In this document: one piece after another, positions 2,344 through 19,355 of the stretch
Position numbering within the stretch: position 1 is the first letter of the stretch
How the letters are laid out: every line of letters starts with the position of its first letter
Assembly: GCA_024227975.1 (NCBI GenBank)
Contig: JAAETV010000267.1
Span: forward strand, 1 to 22,844
Length of the DNA: 22,844 nt
Direction: 5' to 3'
Origin: Actinomycetes bacterium
Lineage (GTDB): Bacteria; Actinomycetota; Acidimicrobiia; Acidimicrobiales; SZUA-35
The notes under the pieces: model-generated
Seen by the model: the letters and a program-made list of their open reading frames with translations, nothing else
Databases searched by the model: none
Told to the model about the DNA's origin: nothing
Made by a program: the position numbers and the translations under genes

Positions 2344-4278
2344 TCAGTGCATCGGGGCCGGAGGACGAAGACGTTCGGCAATGGCTTGGGTCGTGCGATC
2401 GAGGATCATGGCGATGGCCACGATGGCAAAGCCGACCTCGAAGCCGATGCCGAGATCGCTCCGCTTGACCGCGCTGACGGCCGCGAAGCCGAGAGCCCCG
2501 CCACCGACGAGGCCCGAGATGATCACCATGGCCAACACCATCATGATGACCTGGTTGATGCCGGCCATGATGGTGGGCGCCGCCAGCGGGACCCGAACCC
2601 CGAGCATTGTCTGACGGGCCGTGGCACCGAACACATGCGACGCCTCGATGCTCTCCTCCGGTACCTCCCGGATAGCCAGGGCCGTGATCCGAATCCCGGG
2701 CACGATGGCGTAGAGGACCGAGGCAATGATGCCAGGCACGACGCCGACGGTGAAGAAGATGACGGCGGGGATGATGTAGACGAGCGAGGGGATGGTCTGA
2801 AGGGCGTCGAGCACAGGCCCGAGAGCAGCTTCGATCCGAGGGTTCCGGCCGGCCCAGATGCCCACCGGCACCGCGATCGCCACCGACAACACTACGGCCG
2901 CCACGACCTGGGTGAGGGTGTCGAGTGATTGGGCCCACATACCAATGAGTCCGATAGCGGCCATCATCAACACGGTGAATGCGGCCAGGCTCCGGCCCCC
3001 TATCTGCCAGCCAAGCCAACCGCCGACGAAGAGCAGCACCGGCCACGCGATCGTCTCGATCAGGAGATCTCGAACCGGCACATAGAACCGGCTGACGACG
3101 AAGTCGCTGAAGCCGCGGGTCAGCCAACTCAGATTGTCACGGATCCAGACCACCCCGTCGTCGATCGGGTCGAACACCTTCACGTCCCACACCTCGGGAA
3201 ACCCGTCGGTGCCAGCAGCCAGGCCGACGATCACCAACCCGATCAGGGCCCCCACTGAGATCAGGGTTGCTCGCCGGCTGGGCAGGCTCGACCGATCCGT
3301 CACCACCAGAGCCCGACCGATACGGTCCAACACGATGGCGATGGCGACAACGGCCAATCCGGTGGCGATGCCCCGTCCCGTCCTTCGCTGGCTGAGGGTC
3401 TCCATGATCTCCTGGCCTAGACCGCCAGCCCCGAGCAGGGTGGCCAACACCACGATGCCAAGGGCCATCATGATCGTCTGGGTGACCCCCGCCATGATGG
3501 TGGGAAGAGCCATTGGGAGCTGGACTCTCAGCATGGTCTGGCGAGGTCGGGCACCGAACATCTCCGATGCTTCCACCGCCTGATTCGGGACCTCGCGGAT
3601 GCCGAGAGTGGTGAGGCGCACGACGGGCGGTAAGGCATAGATCACCGTGGCGAAAGTGGCTGGAACTCTGCCCACACCGAACAACATCAGCATGGGCAGG
3701 AAATAGACGGGGGCAGGGATTGTCTGCATGGCATCGAGGGCGGGACGCATCACCTTCTCTGCTCGTGGCCGCTGGGCTCCCCAGATGCCGAGGGGTATGC
3801 CAATCACAACCGAGAAGAAGACGGCGATCGTCATCAAGGCCAGGGTGTCGATCGTGACCTCCCACAGGCCGACCAGGCCGGGGTAGAGCATGGCAACCCC
3901 GGGGACGGTGGCCGCTCGCCAACCTCGGGTCCTGGCCACGATCAAGAACACGGCCACCGGGAGAGCGAACCAAGGCACCCATAGCAGGAACGACTCGACC
4001 AGATCGAGGGCCCAACCAACCCCATCGCTCAACGGGGTGAAGAAGCCGGTGAACATGATGTTGGTCCGACGAGCTGACTGCTGCCAGCGCCCGAACTCGT
4101 CGATCGGTTCGGAGAACGTCGTGTCGAGAAGGGCCGGAAACTCGTCGACCCGAGAGAAGGCGGCCTGCAATATCACCACCCCGGCTAGGAGCAGGATCCA
4201 TGGCCCGTACCGACCCATCGAGGCCCGGTCGGCTAGCGAAGCGAGACTGCTTCTGGCCGGGGCGGGAGTGGTCGTCAT
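2344..4278 (-). CDS. Glycine betaine/proline-type ABC importer, fused double permease
   Basis: This 644-residue membrane protein contains two complete binding-protein-dependent permease domains in tandem. Each has an EAA-type coupling loop: EVPNQAVEASEMFGARPRQT near residues 229-248 and EVPEESIEASHVFGATARQT near 538-557. Each is preceded by a matching PALDAMQTIPAPVYFLP or PVLDALQTIPSLVYIIP segment (from about 179 and 488). Family knowledge: ProW/OpuAB permeases are usually single-domain and act as homodimers, so this protein would supply both halves. Its ATG overlaps the stop of the ATPase gene by four bases (ATGA), implying translational coupling. The substrate is inferred from the OpuAC-type binding protein next door; choline, carnitine or related quaternary amines are alternatives. 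Confidence 0.9.
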   Translation of the reverse strand: MTTTPAPARSSLASLADRASMGRYGPWILLLAGVVILQAAFSRVDEFPALLDTTFSEPIDEFGRWQQSARRTNIMFTGFFTPLSDGVGWALDLVESFLLWVPWFALPVAVFLIVARTRGWRAATVPGVAMLYPGLVGLWEVTIDTLALMTIAVFFSVVIGIPLGIWGAQRPRAEKVMRPALDAMQTIPAPVYFLPMLMLFGVGRVPATFATVIYALPPVVRLTTLGIREVPNQAVEASEMFGARPRQTMLRVQLPMALPTIMAGVTQTIMMALGIVVLATLLGAGGLGQEIMETLSQRRTGRGIATGLAVVAIAIVLDRIGRALVVTDRSSLPSRRATLISVGALIGLVIVGLAAGTDGFPEVWDVKVFDPIDDGVVWIRDNLSWLTRGFSDFVVSRFYVPVRDLLIETIAWPVLLFVGGWLGWQIGGRSLAAFTVLMMAAIGLIGMWAQSLDTLTQVVAAVVLSVAIAVPVGIWAGRNPRIEAALGPVLDALQTIPSLVYIIPAVIFFTVGVVPGIIASVLYAIVPGIRITALAIREVPEESIEASHVFGATARQTMLGVRVPLAAPTIMAGINQVIMMVLAMVIISGLVGGGALGFAAVSAVKRSDLGIGFEVGFAIVAIAMILDRTTQAIAERLRPPAPMH

Positions 4279-5336
4279 GACCCAACCTCCAGCAGGGTGA
4301 TCACGGCATCACGGTCGACAATCCCAACCAGCGAGCCCGAGGTATCAGTGACGCCGATCTCGTCGGTTGCGGCTAGCAGGGTCGACAGGATCTCATCGAT
4401 GGTGCGATCGGCGCCGACCGTGGCGTGGATGACCTCGTCGGTGTGAGGCTTCATCACATTGCCAGCAGCAAGGACCTTGGTTCGAGAAACGTCCTCTGTG
4501 AACTCGCGCACATAGTCCGTGGCCGGACTGGCCAGCAGCTCCAGTGCCGTCCCTACCTGATCGAAGGCACCGTCTTTCATGATGGCGATCCGATCTCCGA
4601 GTTTGATGGCCTCATCGAAGTCGTGGGTGATGAACATCGTCGTCCGGTGCAACTCGGCCTGTAGGCGCAGCAACTCGTCTTGCATGTCACGCCGGATCAG
4701 CGGATCGAGAGCGGAGAACGGCTCGTCGAAGAACAGGACCTCGGGCTCCACGGCAAGAGCCCGACCCAAGCCGACCCGTTGCTGCATTCCGCCCGAGAGC
4801 TGCTGAGGGTAGTGATCGCCCCAGCCCCCTAGACCGACCATGTCGAGCACTTCGAGGGCCTTCTCATGGCGGGTAGCTTTTGCGACGCCCTGGACTTCGA
4901 GACCGTAGGCAACATTGTCGATCACCCGGCGATGGGGGAAAAGGCCGAAGTGCTGGAACACCATGGACATGTTCTGGCGGCGGACGGTGCGGAGCTCCTT
5001 GTCGTTCATCGCCGTGAGGTCGGCGCCGTCGAGGTACACATGGCCTTGGGTGACATCGACCAACCGGGCGATGCAGCGCACCAGGGTCGACTTTCCCGAT
5101 CCCGAGAGACCCATCACCACAAAGGTCTCCCCTGGGTTCACCTCGAAGGACACATCACGCACCGCCACCGTGTTGCCGGTGGTTTGGAGGATCTCGTCGC
5201 GACTGACGCCCTGGGCCGCCATCTCCAACGCCCTCTGCGGCTTGGGGCCGAACACCTTGTAGATGTCAGTACCCACCAGGCTGGCGGCAATAGTGTCTGT
5301 GCTGGCCTCGGTGTCGGTGATGTGATCGGTCGACAT
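4275..5336 (-). CDS. Glycine betaine/proline-type ABC importer ATPase with CBS-type tail
   Basis: This 353-residue ATPase energises uptake through the adjacent fused permease. It shows Walker A GLSGSGKST (76-84), Q-loop Gln128 (VFQHFGLFPHR), signature LSGGMQQR (180-187), Walker B VLFFDEP (200-206) with a SALD D-loop, and switch His238 (ITHDFDEA). After about residue 290 a CBS-like segment (VMKPHTDEVIHATVGADRTI, ending GSLVGIVDRDAV) matches ProV/OpuAA proteins, where this region senses ionic strength or regulatory nucleotides. The N-terminal VFGPKPQRALEM is also family-typical. I chose ATG 5336 over a longer frame to 5534 because the extension runs through the divergent binding-protein gene. 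TAGGGT ends seven bases before this ATG. Confidence 0.92.
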   Translation of the reverse strand: MSTDHITDTEASTDTIAASLVGTDIYKVFGPKPQRALEMAAQGVSRDEILQTTGNTVAVRDVSFEVNPGETFVVMGLSGSGKSTLVRCIARLVDVTQGHVYLDGADLTAMNDKELRTVRRQNMSMVFQHFGLFPHRRVIDNVAYGLEVQGVAKATRHEKALEVLDMVGLGGWGDHYPQQLSGGMQQRVGLGRALAVEPEVLFFDEPFSALDPLIRRDMQDELLRLQAELHRTTMFITHDFDEAIKLGDRIAIMKDGAFDQVGTALELLASPATDYVREFTEDVSRTKVLAAGNVMKPHTDEVIHATVGADRTIDEILSTLLAATDEIGVTDTSGSLVGIVDRDAVITLLEVGS

Positions 5337-5343
5337 GGGCGAG

Positions 5344-5349
5344 ACCCTA
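5344..5349 (-). promoter_or_regulatory. Candidate leaderless -10 (TAGGGT) of the importer ATPase gene
   Basis: TAGGGT on the minus strand ends seven bases before ATG 5336. A TAGCGT on the plus strand (5378-5383) could serve the divergent binding-protein gene at 5425. The two would share an 88-base intergenic region, allowing joint osmotic control. No clear -35 boxes are seen. Confidence 0.4.
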
Positions 5350-5424
5350 GTGGACACCGCAAAAAGTTGATCGGTGCTAGCGTGCAGCCCGTCGATAGGT
5401 CTTGTACAGAGAATCGAGGGGACG

Positions 5425-6399
5425 ATGAATCGATTGCTTGCCATTTTGATGGCATTGGGTTTGGTGGCGGCGGCCTGCGGAGATGATTCAGGCGACGCCA
5501 GCGATGACGACACATCCGAACCATCGGGGGACAAGCCGACGATTGCGTTCGTAGTGAACCCGTGGACGGCCTCAGCATTGAACGCCGAGGTCGCGGCACA
5601 ACTGGTCGAGAGCGAGCTCGGTTACCCGACTGATATTGTCACGATCGACGAGAACGAGGCGATGTTCACCGGCCTGGCCGACGGGACACTCGATGCGGTG
5701 CTCGAGATCTGGCCGTCGGGCATCACCGACACCGAACAGGCCTTCTTCGACGACGGGACAGTGGTTGATCTCGGTGGTCTAGGTGCCATCGGCAAGATCG
5801 GGTGGTTCGTGCCCCAGTACGTGATCGACGAAAGGCCCGAGATGGCAACATGGGAGGGACTCGCCAGCCCGGAGGCGGCCGAGTACTTCGCCACCGCAGA
5901 GACCGGTGACCTCGGCCGCTTTCTCGGTACTGATCCTTCGTACTCGCAGTACGACGCTCTGATCATCGAGAACCTTGGTTTGCCGTTCGAGGTGCAGTTC
6001 AGCGGCTCAGAGCCGGCAACGGTCGCCGAGCTCGATGCTCGGGCCGCCGCCGGTGAACCGATCCTCATGTACTGGTGGACGCCCACGGCTGCGGTTGGCA
6101 AGTTCGATCTGGTGAACGTTGAGCTGCCCGCCTTCACCCCCGAGTGTGGGGCCAGCGGGGCGGCTGCCGATGCCGACGTGGCTTGTGACTATCCGGAGGA
6201 TCCGATCTTCAAGGCGGTGTCCGGCGAACTGGAGGAGAAGGCATCAGACGTGTACGCCTTCCTCCAGGCGTTCACCATCACCAATGCCGACCAGCTCGAG
6301 ATGTTGCCATCGGCTGAGATCGACGGCGAGGACGTTGAGGATGTGGCCGCCGACTGGATCGAGGCCCACGAAGACGTCTGGTCCACCTGGCTCGGCTAG
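5425..6399 (+). CDS. Glycine betaine/proline-type substrate-binding lipoprotein
   Basis: This is the 324-residue extracytoplasmic receptor of the importer. ATG 5425 has AGGGG just upstream and gives a lipoprotein signal (MNRLLAILMALGLVAAAC, lipidated Cys18), followed by an acidic Asp/Ser linker to about residue 36. The mature domain fits the OpuAC family: TIAFVVNPWTAS (Trp47), a LGYPTDIVTIDENEAMFTGL segment, LEIWPSG (Trp96), GWFVP (Trp127) and MYWWTP (Trp217 and Trp218). OpuAC proteins bind quaternary ammonium groups in an aromatic cage; these Trp are candidate cage residues by inference. It is divergent from the ATPase and permease. The upstream in-frame ATG at 5374 is rejected because it would displace the signal peptide. 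Confidence 0.92.
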   Translation: MNRLLAILMALGLVAAACGDDSGDASDDDTSEPSGDKPTIAFVVNPWTASALNAEVAAQLVESELGYPTDIVTIDENEAMFTGLADGTLDAVLEIWPSGITDTEQAFFDDGTVVDLGGLGAIGKIGWFVPQYVIDERPEMATWEGLASPEAAEYFATAETGDLGRFLGTDPSYSQYDALIIENLGLPFEVQFSGSEPATVAELDARAAAGEPILMYWWTPTAAVGKFDLVNVELPAFTPECGASGAAADADVACDYPEDPIFKAVSGELEEKASDVYAFLQAFTITNADQLEMLPSAEIDGEDVEDVAADWIEAHEDVWSTWLG

Positions 6400-7264: not shown

Positions 7265-8473
7265 TCAAATGATGCCGTCGTCCTCCATGGCAGCAAGCTC
7301 GTCGGGACCATGGCCGAGCAGGTCGCCCAGTACCTCCTGATTGTGTTGACCAAGTTCCGGCCCCGTCGAGGTGATCCGCCCCGGGGTGGCAGACAGCTTC
7401 GGTATGACATTGGGCATGGGAAACGGCCCGACGACCTCGTCGTCGATCGTGATGATGTTGTCTCGAGCGGCGTAGTGAGGGTCGTTGACGATCTGATCGG
7501 GGGTGTAGATCCCTCCTACCGGTACTCCCGCCTCGACCAGGATCGACTCGACCTCGGCGTAGTCGTGACGACCAACCCACTCCGACAACAGCCCTTCCAG
7601 TTCATCGGCTCGCTCATTGCGACTCTTCCCCCTGGCGTAGCGCTCGTCGGTAGCCAGATCATCGCGCCCCATGGCCGCGGCCATGCGGGGCCAAACGTTG
7701 TCGCCCCCAGCGGCGATCTGGACCCAGCGGTCGTCGCGAGTCTTGAACGTCCCCGCCGGGGTGAAGACCGCGTTGCGGTTGCCGATCCGCTCCCGGATAT
7801 GGCCATGGCGGACGAACCCCGCCACCAGATCACTGGTGATCCGAAACGTCGGCTCATACAGAGCCAGGTCGATCATCTGGCCCTCCCCACCATTGGCGTC
7901 ACGCTCGTACAAGGCCAGGAGGGTGGCCATGGCAGCGTAGGCCGCGCTGTAGTAGTCGGCGGTGGGAAAGGCCGGTCGCACCGGAATCCGATCGGGGAAC
8001 CCGGTGGGATACATATAGCCCGAGAACCCAAGGGCGATCCGGTCATAGCCAGGCCGTTTGGCGTAGGGTCCGACCTGGCCCCAACCAGACACCCGGGTCA
8101 TGATCAGCGACCGGTTCAGAGCGTGGACCTCATCCCACCCGAGGCCCCAACGCTCCAACGTCCCCGGGGTGAAGTTCTCGATCAGCACGTCGGCCGTTGC
8201 GATCAGTTCCCGCACCAGGTCTTGACCGGCGGGCACCCGGAGATTGATCGAGACCGACTTCTTGTTGCGCCCCTCGACCAGCCAACCGGCCGAACGGCCG
8301 GCCTTGCCGTCGCGGGGACTGCCCCGGAGGGTGTCCCCCCGGCCTGGCTGTTCTACCTTGATGACCTCGGCTCCGAAGTCACCAAGAAAGGTGGCAGCAA
8401 CGGGTCCGGCCAGCAGGGTTCCGAGATCGAGCACCCGAATGCCGGTGAGTGGAGGTGGGCCGCTGGTGTTCAT
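7265..8473 (-). CDS. CaiB/BaiF (class III) CoA-transferase
   Basis: This 402-residue protein is a family III CoA-transferase, which moves CoA between organic acids through an aspartyl-CoA intermediate. It opens with the canonical GIRVLDLGTLLAGPVAATFL and FGAEVIKVEQPGRGD (about residues 11-47), then GRNKKSVSINL (68-78), DVLIENFTPGTLERWGLG (95-112) and RPAFPTADYYSA (166-177). Asp173 aligns with the catalytic Asp of formyl-CoA transferase. Length is normal for the family. Substrate is not readable; carnitine-, mesaconate- or fatty-acid-related acids are all possible. The start ATG 8473 lies 11 bases after a TAGGTT on the minus strand, so any leader is very short. It is divergent from the serine hydrolase at 8545. 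Confidence 0.92.
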   Translation of the reverse strand: MNTSGPPPLTGIRVLDLGTLLAGPVAATFLGDFGAEVIKVEQPGRGDTLRGSPRDGKAGRSAGWLVEGRNKKSVSINLRVPAGQDLVRELIATADVLIENFTPGTLERWGLGWDEVHALNRSLIMTRVSGWGQVGPYAKRPGYDRIALGFSGYMYPTGFPDRIPVRPAFPTADYYSAAYAAMATLLALYERDANGGEGQMIDLALYEPTFRITSDLVAGFVRHGHIRERIGNRNAVFTPAGTFKTRDDRWVQIAAGGDNVWPRMAAAMGRDDLATDERYARGKSRNERADELEGLLSEWVGRHDYAEVESILVEAGVPVGGIYTPDQIVNDPHYAARDNIITIDDEVVGPFPMPNVIPKLSATPGRITSTGPELGQHNQEVLGDLLGHGPDELAAMEDDGII

Positions 8474-14430: not shown

Positions 14431-15723
14431 ATGCACACCCTCCTGTTCCATGAAGCCGGGCACTTCCATGCCGCCCTACTCTTGCGGGTCGACAACCCGC
14501 GACTCGACCGGAACGTCCACGTGTACGCCACCCCTGGGCCAGACGTCGACCGGTTCGCCCAGCTCGTTGAGGGGTTCAACCAACGCCAAACCGACCCCAC
14601 CAACTGGAATCTCACCGTCCACACCAGTGATGACCCGCTAGCCCACCTGATCCACGAGCAGCGGGGGCAAACCGTCGTCGTTGCCGGGCCGAATGCACCG
14701 AAACTGGCCGTGATCCGACGGCTCCACGACGCTGGGCTAGCGGTGCTGGCCGACAAGCCCTGGATCACTACCACCGAATCCATCCCAGACCTCGATCGGG
14801 TCACGGCTGGGCCCCCGCTGGTCGTGGACCTGATGACGGGGCGACACAACACTGTCGATCGGCTCCGCCGCCTGGTGGTCGCGACCAGCCCGGTGTTCGG
14901 AGGCTTCGTCGACGACCCTGATCGTGGCCCCGCATTGGAGTCCAAATCGATCCACCACCTCTGCAAGACAGTCGACGGTCGGCCCCTTCACCGTCCCGAG
15001 TGGTACTACGACGTCGCCGTCCAGGGTGACGGTCTCGTCGACATCCAATCCCATCTCGTCGATCAAGCCCAATGGTTGACTGGCGCCGTCGGACCAGTCG
15101 AGAGCGACGAACTCGACGACATCACCATCGAGAGGGCAGAGCGATGGTCGACCCCGGTCCCATTGGCCCTCTACACCGAGAGCACCGGGGCCGACGCATT
15201 CGCCCCGTCGCTGTTGGCCGACGTCGACGACGGTGTGTTGGCCCTCCGCTGCAATGGCCAGCTCGACTACAAACTGCGGGGGCTCAGGATCAGCCAGCGG
15301 ACGGAGTGGGAGGCCCGCCAGCCTGACGGTGGTGGTGATACGCACTGGGCTGTTGCCCGAGGCAGCAGGGCCATCGTCACCGTTCGCCTCGGACCCCAGA
15401 CCGGCTACCGACCCGAGATCCATGTCGGCCCATCCCAGCTCACTAACGCCAGAACCAGCGTGGGCCGCGAATCGTTGGCCGAGACCCTGGTCAGTGCCCT
15501 CGACCAGTGGCGCGTCGGGTTTGCCGGGCTCGATGTGGCCCGCTCGGAACTGGGCTATCAGCTGATCATTCCCCCCGTCCTCGAAACACCACACGAGGCC
15601 ACATTCGCCATCGCCCTCGACGAGTTCCTCGATCGTGTCGAAGCTGGCTCGTGGTCAGCGGAGGAGGCCGAGACGATCCGGGCTCGCTACACCCTATTGG
15701 CCGAAGCTCATGATCAAGGCTGA
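14431..15723 (+). CDS. Gfo/Idh/MocA-like putative oxidoreductase
   Basis: This 430-residue protein is probably a Gfo/Idh/MocA-type oxidoreductase of the group with a 'putative oxidoreductase C-terminal' domain; this call is from overall pattern. The N-terminal half has the expected sequence of events: a Rossmann-like TLLFHEAGHFHAALLL, VVVAGPNAPKLAVIRRLHDAGLAVLADKPWI (the DKP element of the family at about residues 109-111), then VVDLMTGRHNT. A segment GDGLVDIQSHLVDQAQW (about 199-215) places an SHLVD near where related proteins have a catalytic Asp-x-x-x-His. The first residues lack the usual GxGxxG, which is odd. The substrate, probably a sugar or polyol, is unknown. Its 3' end overlaps the convergent ferredoxin gene by 10 bases. 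Confidence 0.65.
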   Translation: MHTLLFHEAGHFHAALLLRVDNPRLDRNVHVYATPGPDVDRFAQLVEGFNQRQTDPTNWNLTVHTSDDPLAHLIHEQRGQTVVVAGPNAPKLAVIRRLHDAGLAVLADKPWITTTESIPDLDRVTAGPPLVVDLMTGRHNTVDRLRRLVVATSPVFGGFVDDPDRGPALESKSIHHLCKTVDGRPLHRPEWYYDVAVQGDGLVDIQSHLVDQAQWLTGAVGPVESDELDDITIERAERWSTPVPLALYTESTGADAFAPSLLADVDDGVLALRCNGQLDYKLRGLRISQRTEWEARQPDGGGDTHWAVARGSRAIVTVRLGPQTGYRPEIHVGPSQLTNARTSVGRESLAETLVSALDQWRVGFAGLDVARSELGYQLIIPPVLETPHEATFAIALDEFLDRVEAGSWSAEEAETIRARYTLLAEAHDQG

Positions 15724-16133
15724 CCGTAGGCCACGGCCGGGTCGGGGAATGGGACTCGTTCGAGCATCCGAATCTTGGGGCAGCCGACAGTTCGGCCCTC
15801 GTCGCAACGAGGACACGAGTAGTTGTCGCCCGGATCTCGCCAAAGGGGACCCCCACAGCCCTCGCAGCGGTCGGCGAAGATATTGCACTCCACCATCTCG
15901 AGCCGCTTGGAACTGAGGGGACAACCACGGCCATGGCACACGACCCACTCAGGGTCGAGCACAATGGCGTCAAGTGGGCACTTCGGCAGGCAATCCGCGC
16001 ATGCATCGCACCGATAGGGGTCGATTTCGAACAGCCCCAGGAACGAGTCGGTCTTGTAGAGGGCGCCATTGGGGCACGAGTAGTCGCACGCACCGCATCC
16101 AATGCACGCCTCTTCCAAGACCTTGTATGTCAC
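15714..16133 (-). CDS. Two-[4Fe-4S] ferredoxin with Cys-rich zinc-ribbon-like tail
   Basis: This is a 139-residue iron-sulfur protein. Residues 1-56 form a bacterial 2[4Fe-4S] ferredoxin: CIGCGACDYSCP (Cys10, 13, 16, 20) and CDACADCLPKCP (Cys42, 45, 48, 52). The remaining 80 residues carry eight more Cys (66, 71, 83, 90, 93, 107, 110, 118) in CHGRGC, CEGCG and CPRC patterns, suggesting one or two zinc ribbons or another metal site. It is the last gene of the diiron operon; its ATG overlaps the preceding stop by four bases. By inference it is the electron donor for the diiron protein encoded first in the operon. Confidence 0.9.
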   Translation of the reverse strand: MTYKVLEEACIGCGACDYSCPNGALYKTDSFLGLFEIDPYRCDACADCLPKCPLDAIVLDPEWVVCHGRGCPLSSKRLEMVECNIFADRCEGCGGPLWRDPGDNYSCPRCDEGRTVGCPKIRMLERVPFPDPAVAYGQP

Positions 16134-16345
16134 GAGGTTGGCATACCGCCATAGTCGTTCTGGGGGTGCATGTGTCGCAGCTCACCCATGCAGTCGTGGT
16201 GGACCCAGGGGGCGACATCGACTCGCTCAGAGCAAGTGCGGTGCTCATAGCTATCGGTTTCGTCGCTCCACTGCCAGTAGCCATAGGCCAAGTCGAGGAT
16301 GCGGGTCACCGGGGAACCGCAGTTTGGGCAATCAGGCACTGGCAT
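16130..16345 (-). CDS. Small Cys/His-rich (zinc-ribbon-like) protein
   Basis: This 71-residue protein has a CPNC knuckle (Cys6, Cys9) and a second possible half made of Cys38, His49/His50, Cys52, His58 and His60. It is rich in Trp and Tyr (YGYWQWSDETDSYEH). The start ATG 16345 has GGAGG six bases upstream. It overlaps the SCP2-like gene by 14 bases and the ferredoxin gene by four, so it is very likely real despite its length. I know no family for it; a metal-binding accessory, chaperone or electron-transfer rubredoxin-like role are possibilities, but only one clear CxxC is present, so rubredoxin itself is unlikely. Confidence 0.8.
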   Translation of the reverse strand: MPVPDCPNCGSPVTRILDLAYGYWQWSDETDSYEHRTCSERVDVAPWVHHDCMGELRHMHPQNDYGGMPTS

Positions 16346-16787
16346 CGCTGCCCTCCTTGGTCAAGACACCGGCAGCAGCATCGAAGAACTCCTGCAGGGT
16401 CTGGTTGAATCGGTGGAATTTGTCCCAGCCCATCGGATCACTGGCGTGAAGCTGGAGCCGCTGGCCCATGATTGTGAGGGTGTTCAATGTCCACTCCCCC
16501 GTTGCCTGACCTTCGGCAACGATATGAGCGAACAGAGCCTCCCAATCCTCGAGGTCGCCCTCGAGCCAGCAGTCTGCTCCAGCTTCGTCCCCCTCATTGA
16601 TCTTCGCCACCGTCTCACAGGTGATCCCGCTGAAGCCGAGCAGCAGTCGGAACGGCTCCTGGTCACCCCTTCGCATCACGAGGGCGAGATCCATATCGAT
16701 ATCGCCTAGCAGTTCGTAGTGAACCGGATCGCCGTTCATCTCGACAGCGAGTCGATCGAAGAGCTCGACATCGTCGACGCCCATCAT
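16332..16787 (-). CDS. SCP2-like (sterol-carrier fold) small protein
   Basis: This 151-residue protein resembles the SCP2 lipid-binding fold. It has an early beta segment DMDLALVMRRGDQEPFRLLLGF, then a stretch with ADCWLEGDLEDWEALFAHIVAEG (about 76-98) where SCP2 proteins have the 'DWxAL' helix, then TLNTLTIMGQRLQLHASDPMGW, and an amphipathic C-terminal helix. The fold call is by pattern only. It starts at a tandem ATG-ATG after GGGGAGGGG; the first ATG overlaps the diiron gene's stop by four bases. In this context it may present a hydrophobic or CoA-linked substrate to the diiron enzyme, which is inference. Confidence 0.6.
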   Translation of the reverse strand: MMGVDDVELFDRLAVEMNGDPVHYELLGDIDMDLALVMRRGDQEPFRLLLGFSGITCETVAKINEGDEAGADCWLEGDLEDWEALFAHIVAEGQATGEWTLNTLTIMGQRLQLHASDPMGWDKFHRFNQTLQEFFDAAAGVLTKEGSDASA

Positions 16788-17929
16788 GCCCCTCCCCCGG
16801 CGGCGGTCGCAGCCGGTGCCTTCAGTCCTGCTCCTGCTCGTATCTGCTCGATGTCGATACCAAGCTCCTCCAACGGGAGCTTGGTCTTCTCGAGCCGGCT
16901 GATTCCAGCCCGCTCGCAGCGAGCCAGGTATGAAGTGAACTGGTTTGCCGACAGGCGACGCTGAAGGGGGAACCCGACCTCTTCGACCTTGTCGGCCCCG
17001 CCGGCCAACAGGAGGGCGACAGCGGTCGACAGGTCGGGCGAGCGACCGAGCGCCACCATGGCTCCCTCACCATGGTCGAGCGCTTCATGGATTTCATCAG
17101 CAACATCGGGGTCGGCCTCGACCGCGTGGCGGATGTGGAGGGTGCCGTAGGCAACGTGACGAGCCTCATCCTGCATGGTCATGCGGAAGATGCGCTTCTC
17201 GACCTCGGTGGGGGCAATGGCCTCGCCCTGGCGGAAAAGGTCGAGGATGAAGCCTTCACCCAATAGATGCAACAGGGCCGTGGCCTGGGTGTAGGTCTTG
17301 GCCTCGATGATCGTCCGGAGGAGGGTCTCGGTACCGGCCCGGGACATGAGGAGGCCGCCGCCATTGGCCAGGGCTCGCTTGCGGAACACCTCGGAGTGAC
17401 GGGCCTCGTCCATGATCTGGGTGCAGAGGAACATCTTGGCTTCGAGGAACTCATGGTTCATCCGCCACATCCACTTGGCCGGCAGGTCGGAGGCGATCAT
17501 CTCGATCTCCGAGAGGGTCGTGCACAGCTGGCAGATGGCGTGCTCGATGTCGGACGGTAGCTCCTGCAGGTCGCCCCACGGGATATCCCTGGTCGCTGAC
17601 CACTGGCGGGCGACAGCTTCCTCGTAGAGCTCGGTGACGTTCGAGGCCCAGACATCGCTCTTTCGGTTGAGGATGTAGCCCATGTCGGGCGTCTCGTCGT
17701 CGATATCGGCGCCACGAGCAGCCATGGCCCGGTGGACAGGGTGCTCAGGGATGTCGCCGTAAGTACCGACGGCGATGTCCATCATCGTCAAGCCCCGTGC
17801 GCTCGGCTTGGGGTGGATGCCCCACTCGCTCTTGTGACCTGCCAACCAGGCCCAGTCGAGACTAGCTCCGTTGGGGGCAGTGTCTGGCAGGTCTGGATAG
17901 AGGTCCAGGACTTGTTGGGAAATGGCCAT
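16784..17929 (-). CDS. Ferritin-like diiron protein (putative oxygenase or desaturase)
   Basis: This 381-residue helical protein has a complete ferritin-like carboxylate diiron ligand set: Glu143 (LSEIEMIASDLPAKW), Glu175-x-x-His178 (MDEARHSEVF), Glu225 (LLGEGFILDLF) and Glu255-x-x-His258 (QDEARHVAYG). Glu-to-ExxH spacings of about 32 and 30 residues match R2, R2lox and AurF-type enzymes. The conserved WSATRDIPW (110-118) is distinctive of this actinobacterial subgroup as I recall it. ATG 17929 is chosen because GAGGAG (17937-17942) lies seven bases upstream; an in-frame extension to 17995 is unlikely. It heads an operon that ends with a ferredoxin, so O2 activation fed by that ferredoxin is likely. 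The substrate is unknown. Confidence 0.85.
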   Translation of the reverse strand: MAISQQVLDLYPDLPDTAPNGASLDWAWLAGHKSEWGIHPKPSARGLTMMDIAVGTYGDIPEHPVHRAMAARGADIDDETPDMGYILNRKSDVWASNVTELYEEAVARQWSATRDIPWGDLQELPSDIEHAICQLCTTLSEIEMIASDLPAKWMWRMNHEFLEAKMFLCTQIMDEARHSEVFRKRALANGGGLLMSRAGTETLLRTIIEAKTYTQATALLHLLGEGFILDLFRQGEAIAPTEVEKRIFRMTMQDEARHVAYGTLHIRHAVEADPDVADEIHEALDHGEGAMVALGRSPDLSTAVALLLAGGADKVEEVGFPLQRRLSANQFTSYLARCERAGISRLEKTKLPLEELGIDIEQIRAGAGLKAPAATAAGGGA

Positions 17930-18098: not shown

Positions 18099-19355
18099 AT
18101 GGCGATGAAGGTCGAGCCGATTCCAACGGTCTCCGATCGGATCAACGAGATCCGGGGGTTGACGGCGAGGATCGTCAACGAGGAGATCCTGCCCAACGAA
18201 AACATGATCTGGGCCTCCCGAGTCGAAGGCCAGACACTGACCGACGCCGATCGGCGCGAGGCCCGGGCGCTGAGGGAAGGGATCAAGGAGAAGGTCCGCC
18301 AGGCCGGGCTGTGGGCGCCCCATCTCCCAGAGGAGTACGGGGGCGCCGGGCTCAACTTCTTGGAGCACGCCTACATGAACGAGGTGCTGGCCTACGCCGT
18401 CGGGGCCGCTCGCTTGTTCGGAGTGGTTGCCCCCAATTCAGGCAACCAGTCGATCCTGGTCAAGTACGGCACTCCCGAACAAAAGGAGAAGTGGCTCATC
18501 CCGTCCCTCGAAGGGAAGATGGAGTCCGGCTTCTCCATGACCGAGCCCGATGTCGCCGGGTCCGACCCCCGCTCGCTGCAGACGACGGCGATCCGTGACG
18601 GCGAAGAGTGGGTCATCAACGGTCACAAGTGGTTCACCTCGAATGGACTGGCCGCCGACTTCCTCATCGTCATGTGCAAGACCGAAGACCCAGAGGGGGG
18701 CGAGAACTCCAACACCCGCATGACCCAGATCATCGTGCCGACCGATACGCCGGGGGTGAATATCGTCAGAGGGCTCAACGTGTGGGGCCGCTCCAGTGAT
18801 CACTGCGAGATCATCTACGACGATGTGCGGGTTCCGGTCGAGAATCAGCTCGGTAGTCGGGGCAGTGGCCACCAGGCCGCCCAGGATCGCCTCGGGGCGG
18901 GGCGGGTCTACCACTGTATGAACTCCATCGGACAGATGTGGCGGGCCTTCGATCTGATGATCGAGCGATCAATGAGCCGTGAGGTCCACGGCGGGCTGCT
19001 TCGGACCAAGCAATTCGTGCAGGGTTTCATCGCCGACTCCTATATCGACATCCAATCGGCCCGCCTCATGACGATCCACTGTGCCGAGAAGATGGAGAGT
19101 GGTTTGAGCGACGCCCGAACCGACATCTCTGCCATCAAGGTGTTCGTACCCGAGGCCTACCAGCGAGTCGTCGACAGGGCCATCCAGGTTTGGGGAGGCG
19201 CCGGAGTTACCGGCGACCTGCCCCTTGCCAGCATGTACATCGGGGCCAGGACCCTACGCCTGGCCGACGGACCAGACGAGGTTCACAAGATCCTGATCGC
19301 CAAGAACATCCTCAGCCGCTACAGCGGCGGCGACGGTTGGGACTTCGGTAACTAG
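18099..19355 (+). CDS. Acyl-CoA dehydrogenase (ACAD10/11-like subgroup)
   Basis: This 418-residue FAD enzyme introduces an alpha-beta double bond in an acyl-CoA. Seen: LPEEYGGAGLNFLEHA (about 76-91), the FAD/substrate segment GFSMTEPDVAGSDP, GHKWFTSNGLAADFLIVM, the NVWGRSSDHCEIIYDDVRVP region, and a C-terminal WGGAGVTGDLPLASMYIGAR followed by LADGPDEVH. By family knowledge the Asp/Glu of GPDEVH is the catalytic position in ACAD10/11-like proteins. ATG 18099 follows an AAGGGG six bases upstream. Chain length and branching of the substrate are unknown. It is divergent from the diiron operon, consistent with shared lipid metabolism. Its TAG stop is in the loop of the first repeat hairpin. Confidence 0.93.
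   Translation: MAMKVEPIPTVSDRINEIRGLTARIVNEEILPNENMIWASRVEGQTLTDADRREARALREGIKEKVRQAGLWAPHLPEEYGGAGLNFLEHAYMNEVLAYAVGAARLFGVVAPNSGNQSILVKYGTPEQKEKWLIPSLEGKMESGFSMTEPDVAGSDPRSLQTTAIRDGEEWVINGHKWFTSNGLAADFLIVMCKTEDPEGGENSNTRMTQIIVPTDTPGVNIVRGLNVWGRSSDHCEIIYDDVRVPVENQLGSRGSGHQAAQDRLGAGRVYHCMNSIGQMWRAFDLMIERSMSREVHGGLLRTKQFVQGFIADSYIDIQSARLMTIHCAEKMESGLSDARTDISAIKVFVPEAYQRVVDRAIQVWGGAGVTGDLPLASMYIGARTLRLADGPDEVHKILIAKNILSRYSGGDGWDFGN

Follow-up and report, generated by a model that had tools for sequence, protein, structure and literature searches.

A 22,844-nucleotide stretch of DNA from an Actinomycetes bacterium (order Acidimicrobiales; assembly GCA_024227975.1, contig JAAETV010000267.1), referred to here as the window, carries a four-gene operon that in our judgement probably encodes a soluble O2-activating dimetal-carboxylate oxidase or oxygenase with an obligate SCP2-fold partner, the likeliest substrate being fatty-acyl or CoA-linked. 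The genes, which we call DI, SCP, ZN and FD, lie on the minus strand at 15714-17929 with successive overlaps of 4, 14 and 4 bases, an arrangement reported in a preliminary description of this DNA and confirmed by the sequence and its open reading frames (ORFs). The closest protein relatives that are named come from Actinomycetia/Acidimicrobiia assemblies, and relatives of DI and SCP, where named in their source records, are called ferritin-like or hypothetical. The operon consists of:

16784..17929, minus strand: DI, predicted R2/R2lox/ADO-fold dimetal-carboxylate protein, 381 aa
16332..16787, minus strand: SCP, SCP2-fold partner, 151 aa, overlapping DI by 4 bases
16130..16345, minus strand: ZN, 71 aa, invariant C6xxC9...C52...H60
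15714..16133, minus strand: FD, 2[4Fe-4S]-type ferredoxin with an eight-Cys C-terminal extension, 139 aa, GTG start

DI and SCP are the core of a conserved module

A scan of contigs gave 87 relatives, of which the best 80 loci were taken; as the scan patterns came from aligned close relatives, distant members are under-sampled. Wherever 550 bases or more are available after DI (75 loci), SCP immediately follows it, with a median gap of 8 bases and 27 overlaps. The five remaining loci have fewer than 550 bases after DI and stand outside this count: L001 and L056 still show SCP, and L029, L037 and L063 end first. Of the 49 actinobacterial loci with room, 47 have FD no farther than 1.3 kb from SCP. 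The other two are L053 (Aciditerrimonas ferrireducens strain MV1), in which a divergent FD stands immediately upstream of DI, and L007, where FD is on a different contig of the genome (G011). ZN is found in 44 of 45 main-group actinobacterial loci with room (it is missing in L047) and in none of the six earlier-branching actinobacterial loci. The window neighbours GFO, AT and ADH, considered as conserved partners, were rejected (0/80, 0/80 and 1/80 loci).

All 12 SCP matches in seven whole genomes lie inside a DI cluster, 10 of them adjoining DI and two standing second in tandem SCP pairs; weaker DI-profile matches (23-56 bits) elsewhere in these genomes have no SCP match beside them. Among 148 genomes of one class, the same 15 hold strong DI (E below 1e-90, a threshold chosen after the matches had been seen), SCP (E ≤ 1e-6) and FD (E ≤ 1e-20). 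If genomes were independent, which relatives are not, a single partner would coincide with a given set of 15 of the 148 by chance with a probability of 8e-21. ZN occurs in 7 of these 15 module-bearing genomes, and DI at E ≤ 1e-40 in 18 of the 148. Eighteen of the 19 SCP matches in the 15 genomes share a contig with a DI match, mostly directly adjoining it; SCP lies farther off in G066 (4.5 kb) and, as a second copy, in G059 (2.3 kb) and G017 (1.3 kb). The nineteenth begins 1.4 kb into contig C585 of G028, a contig without a DI match. Two of the DI matches, that of G059 and the second one of G134, are split or partial. In phylum samples, DI at E ≤ 1e-40 was present in 9 of 198 actinobacterial and 3 of 99 Binatota-type genomes, and SCP in one of 249 gammaproteobacterial genomes, namely the starting genome; the module is rare outside its groups.

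Because the genes keep together so strictly, DI and SCP, joined in actinobacteria by FD, very probably act as one machine. DI-SCP is the core in the sampled groups; FD is restricted to the actinobacterial branch and ZN a partial addition. The co-occurrence that the preliminary description had proposed as its check was thus found. Its idea of a four-gene system holds for a real module of DI, an SCP2-fold partner and an actinobacterial ferredoxin, and fails in that the four genes are not equal partners. The preliminary description knew of no system with this exact gene set, and a literature search over titles and abstract openings, covering few subscription papers, returned no description of the combination.

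DI is a predicted dimetal-carboxylate protein

The confident structure model of DI has the R2/ADO fold, with R2lox as its top match, and together with the sequence it points to an R2/R2lox/ADO-fold protein sharing the R2lox fold and the dimetal ExxH ligand plan. Six predicted ligands (E143, E175, H178, E225, E255 and H258) sit on the four long helices of the model, their clustering being judged from helices, conservation and fold. Their codons are:

17501..17503, minus strand: E143, predicted metal ligand by conservation, helix 126-154
17396..17407, minus strand: E175-H178 (ExxH), predicted ligands by conservation, helix 159-190
17255..17257, minus strand: E225, predicted metal ligand by conservation, helix 213-233
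17156..17167, minus strand: E255-H258 (ExxH), predicted ligands by conservation, helix 242-272

We aligned the window protein with 39 of 91 plus-strand DI matches; the gammaproteobacterial loci L071, L075 and L078 lie outside the ligand reading. All six residues are present in 37 of 38 catalytic copies (31 of 32 alignment rows and 6 of 6 added copies), and the sole exception, L047, has a deletion spanning E225. E143 is a better ligand candidate than E141, the alternative on the first helix, because E141 is M in L123. The ferritin-like protein with a full E...ExxH...E...ExxH set, proposed earlier together with a structure-prediction check of ligand geometry, is thus supported by both the model and the conservation.

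The best PDB sequence match of DI is marginal (7qbp, E 0.0044); its top NCBIfam family, R2lox, scores 37.7 bits, far below the cutoff of 194; and Pfam PF00268 (ribonucleotide reductase R2) scores 19 bits, under the gathering score of 33.6. No AurF and no PaaABCE/multicomponent-monooxygenase Pfam family matched DI at E ≤ 1, and DI, SCP and ZN received no Pfam or NCBIfam name above cutoff. Site 182, which would correspond to the radical-Tyr site of R2, is Phe in 40 of 40 alignment rows and 9 of 10 added copies. Class Ic R2 likewise has Phe at this site, so Phe182 is not decisive.

Some lineages pair DI with a ligand-less copy

Gene order differs among lineages. Actinobacterial loci read DI-SCP(-ZN)-FD, and loci titled Binataceae or 'Deltaproteobacteria' read DI-SCP; most actinobacterial and Binataceae-type loci, the window included, have a single kind of DI. 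Binatota-type genomes show the additional paired forms SCP-DI_A-DI_B and DI_A-DI_B-SCP, their duplicated loci having one SCP within the stretch read, and gammaproteobacterial loci show DI_A-DI_B-SCP_A-SCP_B in 11 of 11 cases. Judged by their residues, the pairs in gammaproteobacteria and some Binatota-type genomes appear to consist of a catalytic and a ligand-less DI: substitutions have removed E175, E225 and E255 from each of the 12 DI_B copies read and E143 from 10, and the histidines are lost less regularly than the glutamates. Because the retained partner lost exactly those residues, the lost glutamates would bind metal in the catalytic copy. On the DI tree the ligand-less type must have arisen two or more times independently, a number qualified by the program's long-branch warning. 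The presence of two SCPs with two DIs in gammaproteobacteria favours a fixed subunit over a free carrier.

Downstream in the gammaproteobacterial loci we found a zinc-ribbon protein (7/11), a sodium:solute symporter (8/11) and a family III CoA-transferase (9/11). These neighbour families derive from approximate gene calls by a codon-usage caller, and their names from one Pfam-scanned representative per cluster. In L005, two extra DI-like frames (104 and 113 bits) lie at 15045-16813 (-), on the strand opposite to the locus's full operon.

SCP, FD and ZN

SCP has the SCP2 fold and a structure close to SCP2 proteins, so that the SCP2-like protein of the preliminary description is borne out at the level of fold; Pfam PF02036 (SCP2) matched one of 41 SCP members (E 0.017) and did not match the window protein. 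FD has two CxxCxxCxxxC motifs and a Fer4 domain (PF00037, 34 bits against a cutoff of 21.1), in agreement with the two-[4Fe-4S] ferredoxin named earlier. An alignment of the window protein with 16 of 52 FD revealed 16 invariant Cys in all, eight of which had been overlooked and lie in a C-terminal extension beyond the ferredoxin motifs. The four invariant residues of ZN (window and 14 of 46 ZN aligned) probably form a CCCH metal site, and a comparison of ZN with the PDB gave no significant match (best E 0.046).

A flavin-reductase-domain family (PF01613, one representative scanned) stands beside DI in eight actinobacterial loci, in seven of them on the opposite strand, about 0.7 kb ahead of the DI start (e.g. 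L040, L041, L030). Its product could be another electron source.

A neighbouring acyl-CoA dehydrogenase hints at the substrate

One gene outside the operon is associated with it:

18099..19355, plus strand: ACAD, ACAD10/11-type acyl-CoA dehydrogenase, 418 aa

ACAD is divergent from DI, 169 bases from the DI start, and its nearest PDB entries are 4hr3, 2wbi and 8v3u (ACAD11 among them), at E 2e-74 to 1e-72. In eight loci a close orthologue (73-77%) is no more than 37 bases from the operon's 3' end, and in a ninth it is 6 kb away; because the gene adjoins the operon's other end in those eight, the link appears to have survived rearrangement. A profile count of ACAD in 22 loci was set aside, since only nine are close orthologues and the others that BLAST found are 22-40% identical. 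ACAD keeps the Asp of the DGPDEVH motif and the first R and the H of the active-site R/H/R helix, as judged from residue roles in PMC12440821 and our mapping to its numbering. ACAD10/11 and bacterial LvaC process 4-hydroxyacyl-CoA after phosphorylation, according to PMC12440821 and PMC11342911. The adjoining dehydrogenase tentatively favours an acyl-CoA substrate for the module, and the hydrophobic or CoA-linked substrate first suggested for the operon gains support from ACAD and from the CoA-transferases near the gammaproteobacterial copies.

Several further observations concern the surroundings of DI genes. In two actinobacterial-class genomes, paralogous DI/SCP loci (L123, 5628-12006; L125, 8030-14843) sit among Amidohydro_2 and hydantoinase-type genes, and substrates within the DI family may vary for this reason. 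A distant DI subfamily (E ~1e-50; L119:8049-10019, L120:7783-8991, L121:8490-9731 and L122:7964-9208) was set aside, SCP being found in none of the four loci read. Its genes stand repeatedly together with those of an acyl-CoA dehydrogenase and an SBP-like protein, as a set of three; in L119 these two neighbours match best the NCBIfam families Rv1679/FadE16 and Rv1680, below cutoff. Some 7 kb from the operon, the ORF list of the window has at 7265-8473 (-) a frame resembling a family III (CaiB-type) CoA-transferase. The same list has at 2344-4278 (-), 4275-5534 (-) and 5374-6399 (+) an ABC transporter resembling the choline/betaine type, whose 644-aa permease is seemingly two fused permease units.

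Proposed mechanism and alternatives

We propose that DI holds a metal pair (Fe/Fe or Mn/Fe) in its four-helix bundle, with ligands suggested by conservation and fold, and that the likeliest role of SCP is to present a hydrophobic acyl substrate there or to gate it. FD would supply electrons in actinobacteria and another donor elsewhere, with the eight-Cys extension and ZN perhaps serving as docking or metal-site accessories. Reduced DI would then activate O2 and oxidise the substrate that SCP presents or gates. A fatty-acyl or other CoA-linked substrate is likeliest, and tentatively it might be hydroxylated or desaturated before the neighbouring dehydrogenase acts.

Several observations weigh against this proposal. 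The metal binding, O2 use, electron transfer and substrate proposed here are predictions rather than biochemical findings. The strong-DI threshold was retrospective, and absences in the 148-genome searches are uncertain, first-look candidates having been scored only partly in many genomes. G126, G145 and G149 have only the distant DI type (~1e-50 to 1e-54) and no SCP. In-frame stops interrupt the FD of G134, the ZN of G059 and the second SCP of G017. FD-type paralogues (127-142 bits) occur apart from DI in G017 (C74), G023 (C292), G146 (C23) and G028 (C209), and FD, sought in six Binatota-type and gammaproteobacterial genomes, was absent from all six at E ≤ 1e-20; for these two reasons FD is not the donor everywhere. 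Close linkage to ACAD is confined to nine of 80 loci and the window, ACAD being absent from most loci within the stretch examined. The third basic active-site residue of ACAD is Asn in the window and the nine orthologues (R in L053), and because one of three basic residues is Asn, its exact substrate may differ. As for the FD paralogues themselves, those of G017 C74, G146 C23 and G028 C209 correspond to loci L126, L127 and L128, and long ORFs near the ferredoxins of L126 and L127 read like what we take to be molybdopterin oxidoreductases.

The alternative that survives best, a real possibility though in our view a doubtful one, is that SCP is a structural or effector subunit, like methane monooxygenase component B or PaaB, that has lost lipid binding, in which case the substrate may be small and soluble. 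It would account for the translational coupling of SCP to DI in many loci, for the two SCPs accompanying two DIs in all gammaproteobacterial loci, as fixed stoichiometry would give, for invariant SCP residues that are few and partly polar (G28, W82, R126 and Q132; window and 40 of 89 SCP aligned), and for the symporter, of a family type that moves soluble substrates, in eight of those 11 loci. However, the SCP fold is close to that of SCP2 proteins, the Binatota-type duplicated loci show one SCP within the stretch read, and the known SCP2-hydroxylase pairings, UbiJ and UbiT, are described as lipid-binding in PMC6747719.

That DI is a VlmB-like N-oxygenase or another secondary-metabolite tailoring enzyme is unlikely: the recurrent neighbours include acyl-CoA and transport genes, the AurF family is unmatched, and no biosynthetic-cluster gene stood out among recurrent neighbours, although no search was aimed at such clusters. 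We also think it improbable that DI is a Mn/Fe R2lox-type or self-modifying oxidase without multiple turnover on a small substrate, even though R2lox is its top fold match and top NCBIfam family. A dedicated ferredoxin and SCP suggest turnover, and the repeatedly evolved pairs of catalytic and ligand-less copies resemble turnover monooxygenases. On our putative mapping to R2lox, the Tyr of the R2lox Tyr-Val ether crosslink would presumably lie near E225, and the window DI has no Tyr around residues 215-229. Finally, an accidental overlap of four unrelated genes, a thought prompted by the tight overlaps common in compact bacterial genomes, is refuted by the 75/75 adjacency and the shared 15 of 148 genomes, as regards DI-SCP and the actinobacterial FD.

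The preferred reading, an SCP2-partnered dimetal oxidase or oxygenase, allows a bolder version, which we offer as a conjecture. The module may form a class of its own among soluble dimetal monooxygenases, one where the usual effector gives way to an SCP2-fold subunit that feeds an acyl-CoA to the metal site, a 16-Cys ferredoxin drives the reaction in actinobacteria, and a ligand-less partner evolved at least twice, repeating the history of methane- and phenylacetyl-CoA-type monooxygenases. The actinobacterial carriers of this uncharacterised module include records titled Ilumatobacteraceae and Candidatus Microthrix. Microthrix is a lipid-storing activated-sludge organism. If the module does oxidise acyl chains or CoA esters, it would be a further way of turning over lipids or hydrocarbons aerobically. 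The module is also a natural experiment on how dimetal oxygenases gain ligand-less partners, and could show whether SCP2 proteins ever serve as genuine subunits of an enzyme.

Comparison with known systems

DI has its fold in common with the group of R2lox, the VlmB azoxy synthase and aldehyde-deformylating oxygenase, the sequence match being marginal, and differs from them in an extra N-terminal segment, an obligate SCP partner and, in some lineages, a ligand-less paralogue. Its likeness to the AurF/VlmB N-oxygenases is in fold only. ACAD is nearest to 4hr3 and ACAD11 and shares the Asp of the DGPDEVH motif with the LvaC/ACAD10/ACAD11 group; it differs in having no kinase domain in its 418 aa and Asn at ACAD11's third basic residue.

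According to PMC4498308, PaaABCE combines a ferritin-like catalytic subunit, a structural subunit of the same fold and a small partner, and acts on an acyl-CoA. DI_A/DI_B appear to repeat this plan, PaaAC being the nearest parallel for the paired form, and the loss of ligand glutamates in DI_B is as in alpha/beta diiron monooxygenases. In contrast, the window operon has a single DI and no structural paralogue, such a paralogue being present in its gammaproteobacterial and some Binatota-type relatives. PaaABCE and the module have no common Pfam family; PaaB stands in the one where the SCP2-fold partner stands in the other, and PaaABCE uses the flavin reductase PaaE whereas the actinobacterial module has a ferredoxin.

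SCP2 proteins also serve ubiquinone hydroxylation, UbiJ with O2-dependent hydroxylases and UbiT with UbiUV (PMC6747719); genes for quinone biosynthesis were not noticed next to the operon. In those systems the SCP2 protein acts as organiser of a complex of several enzymes, whereas the SCP of the module is tied to one dimetal protein.

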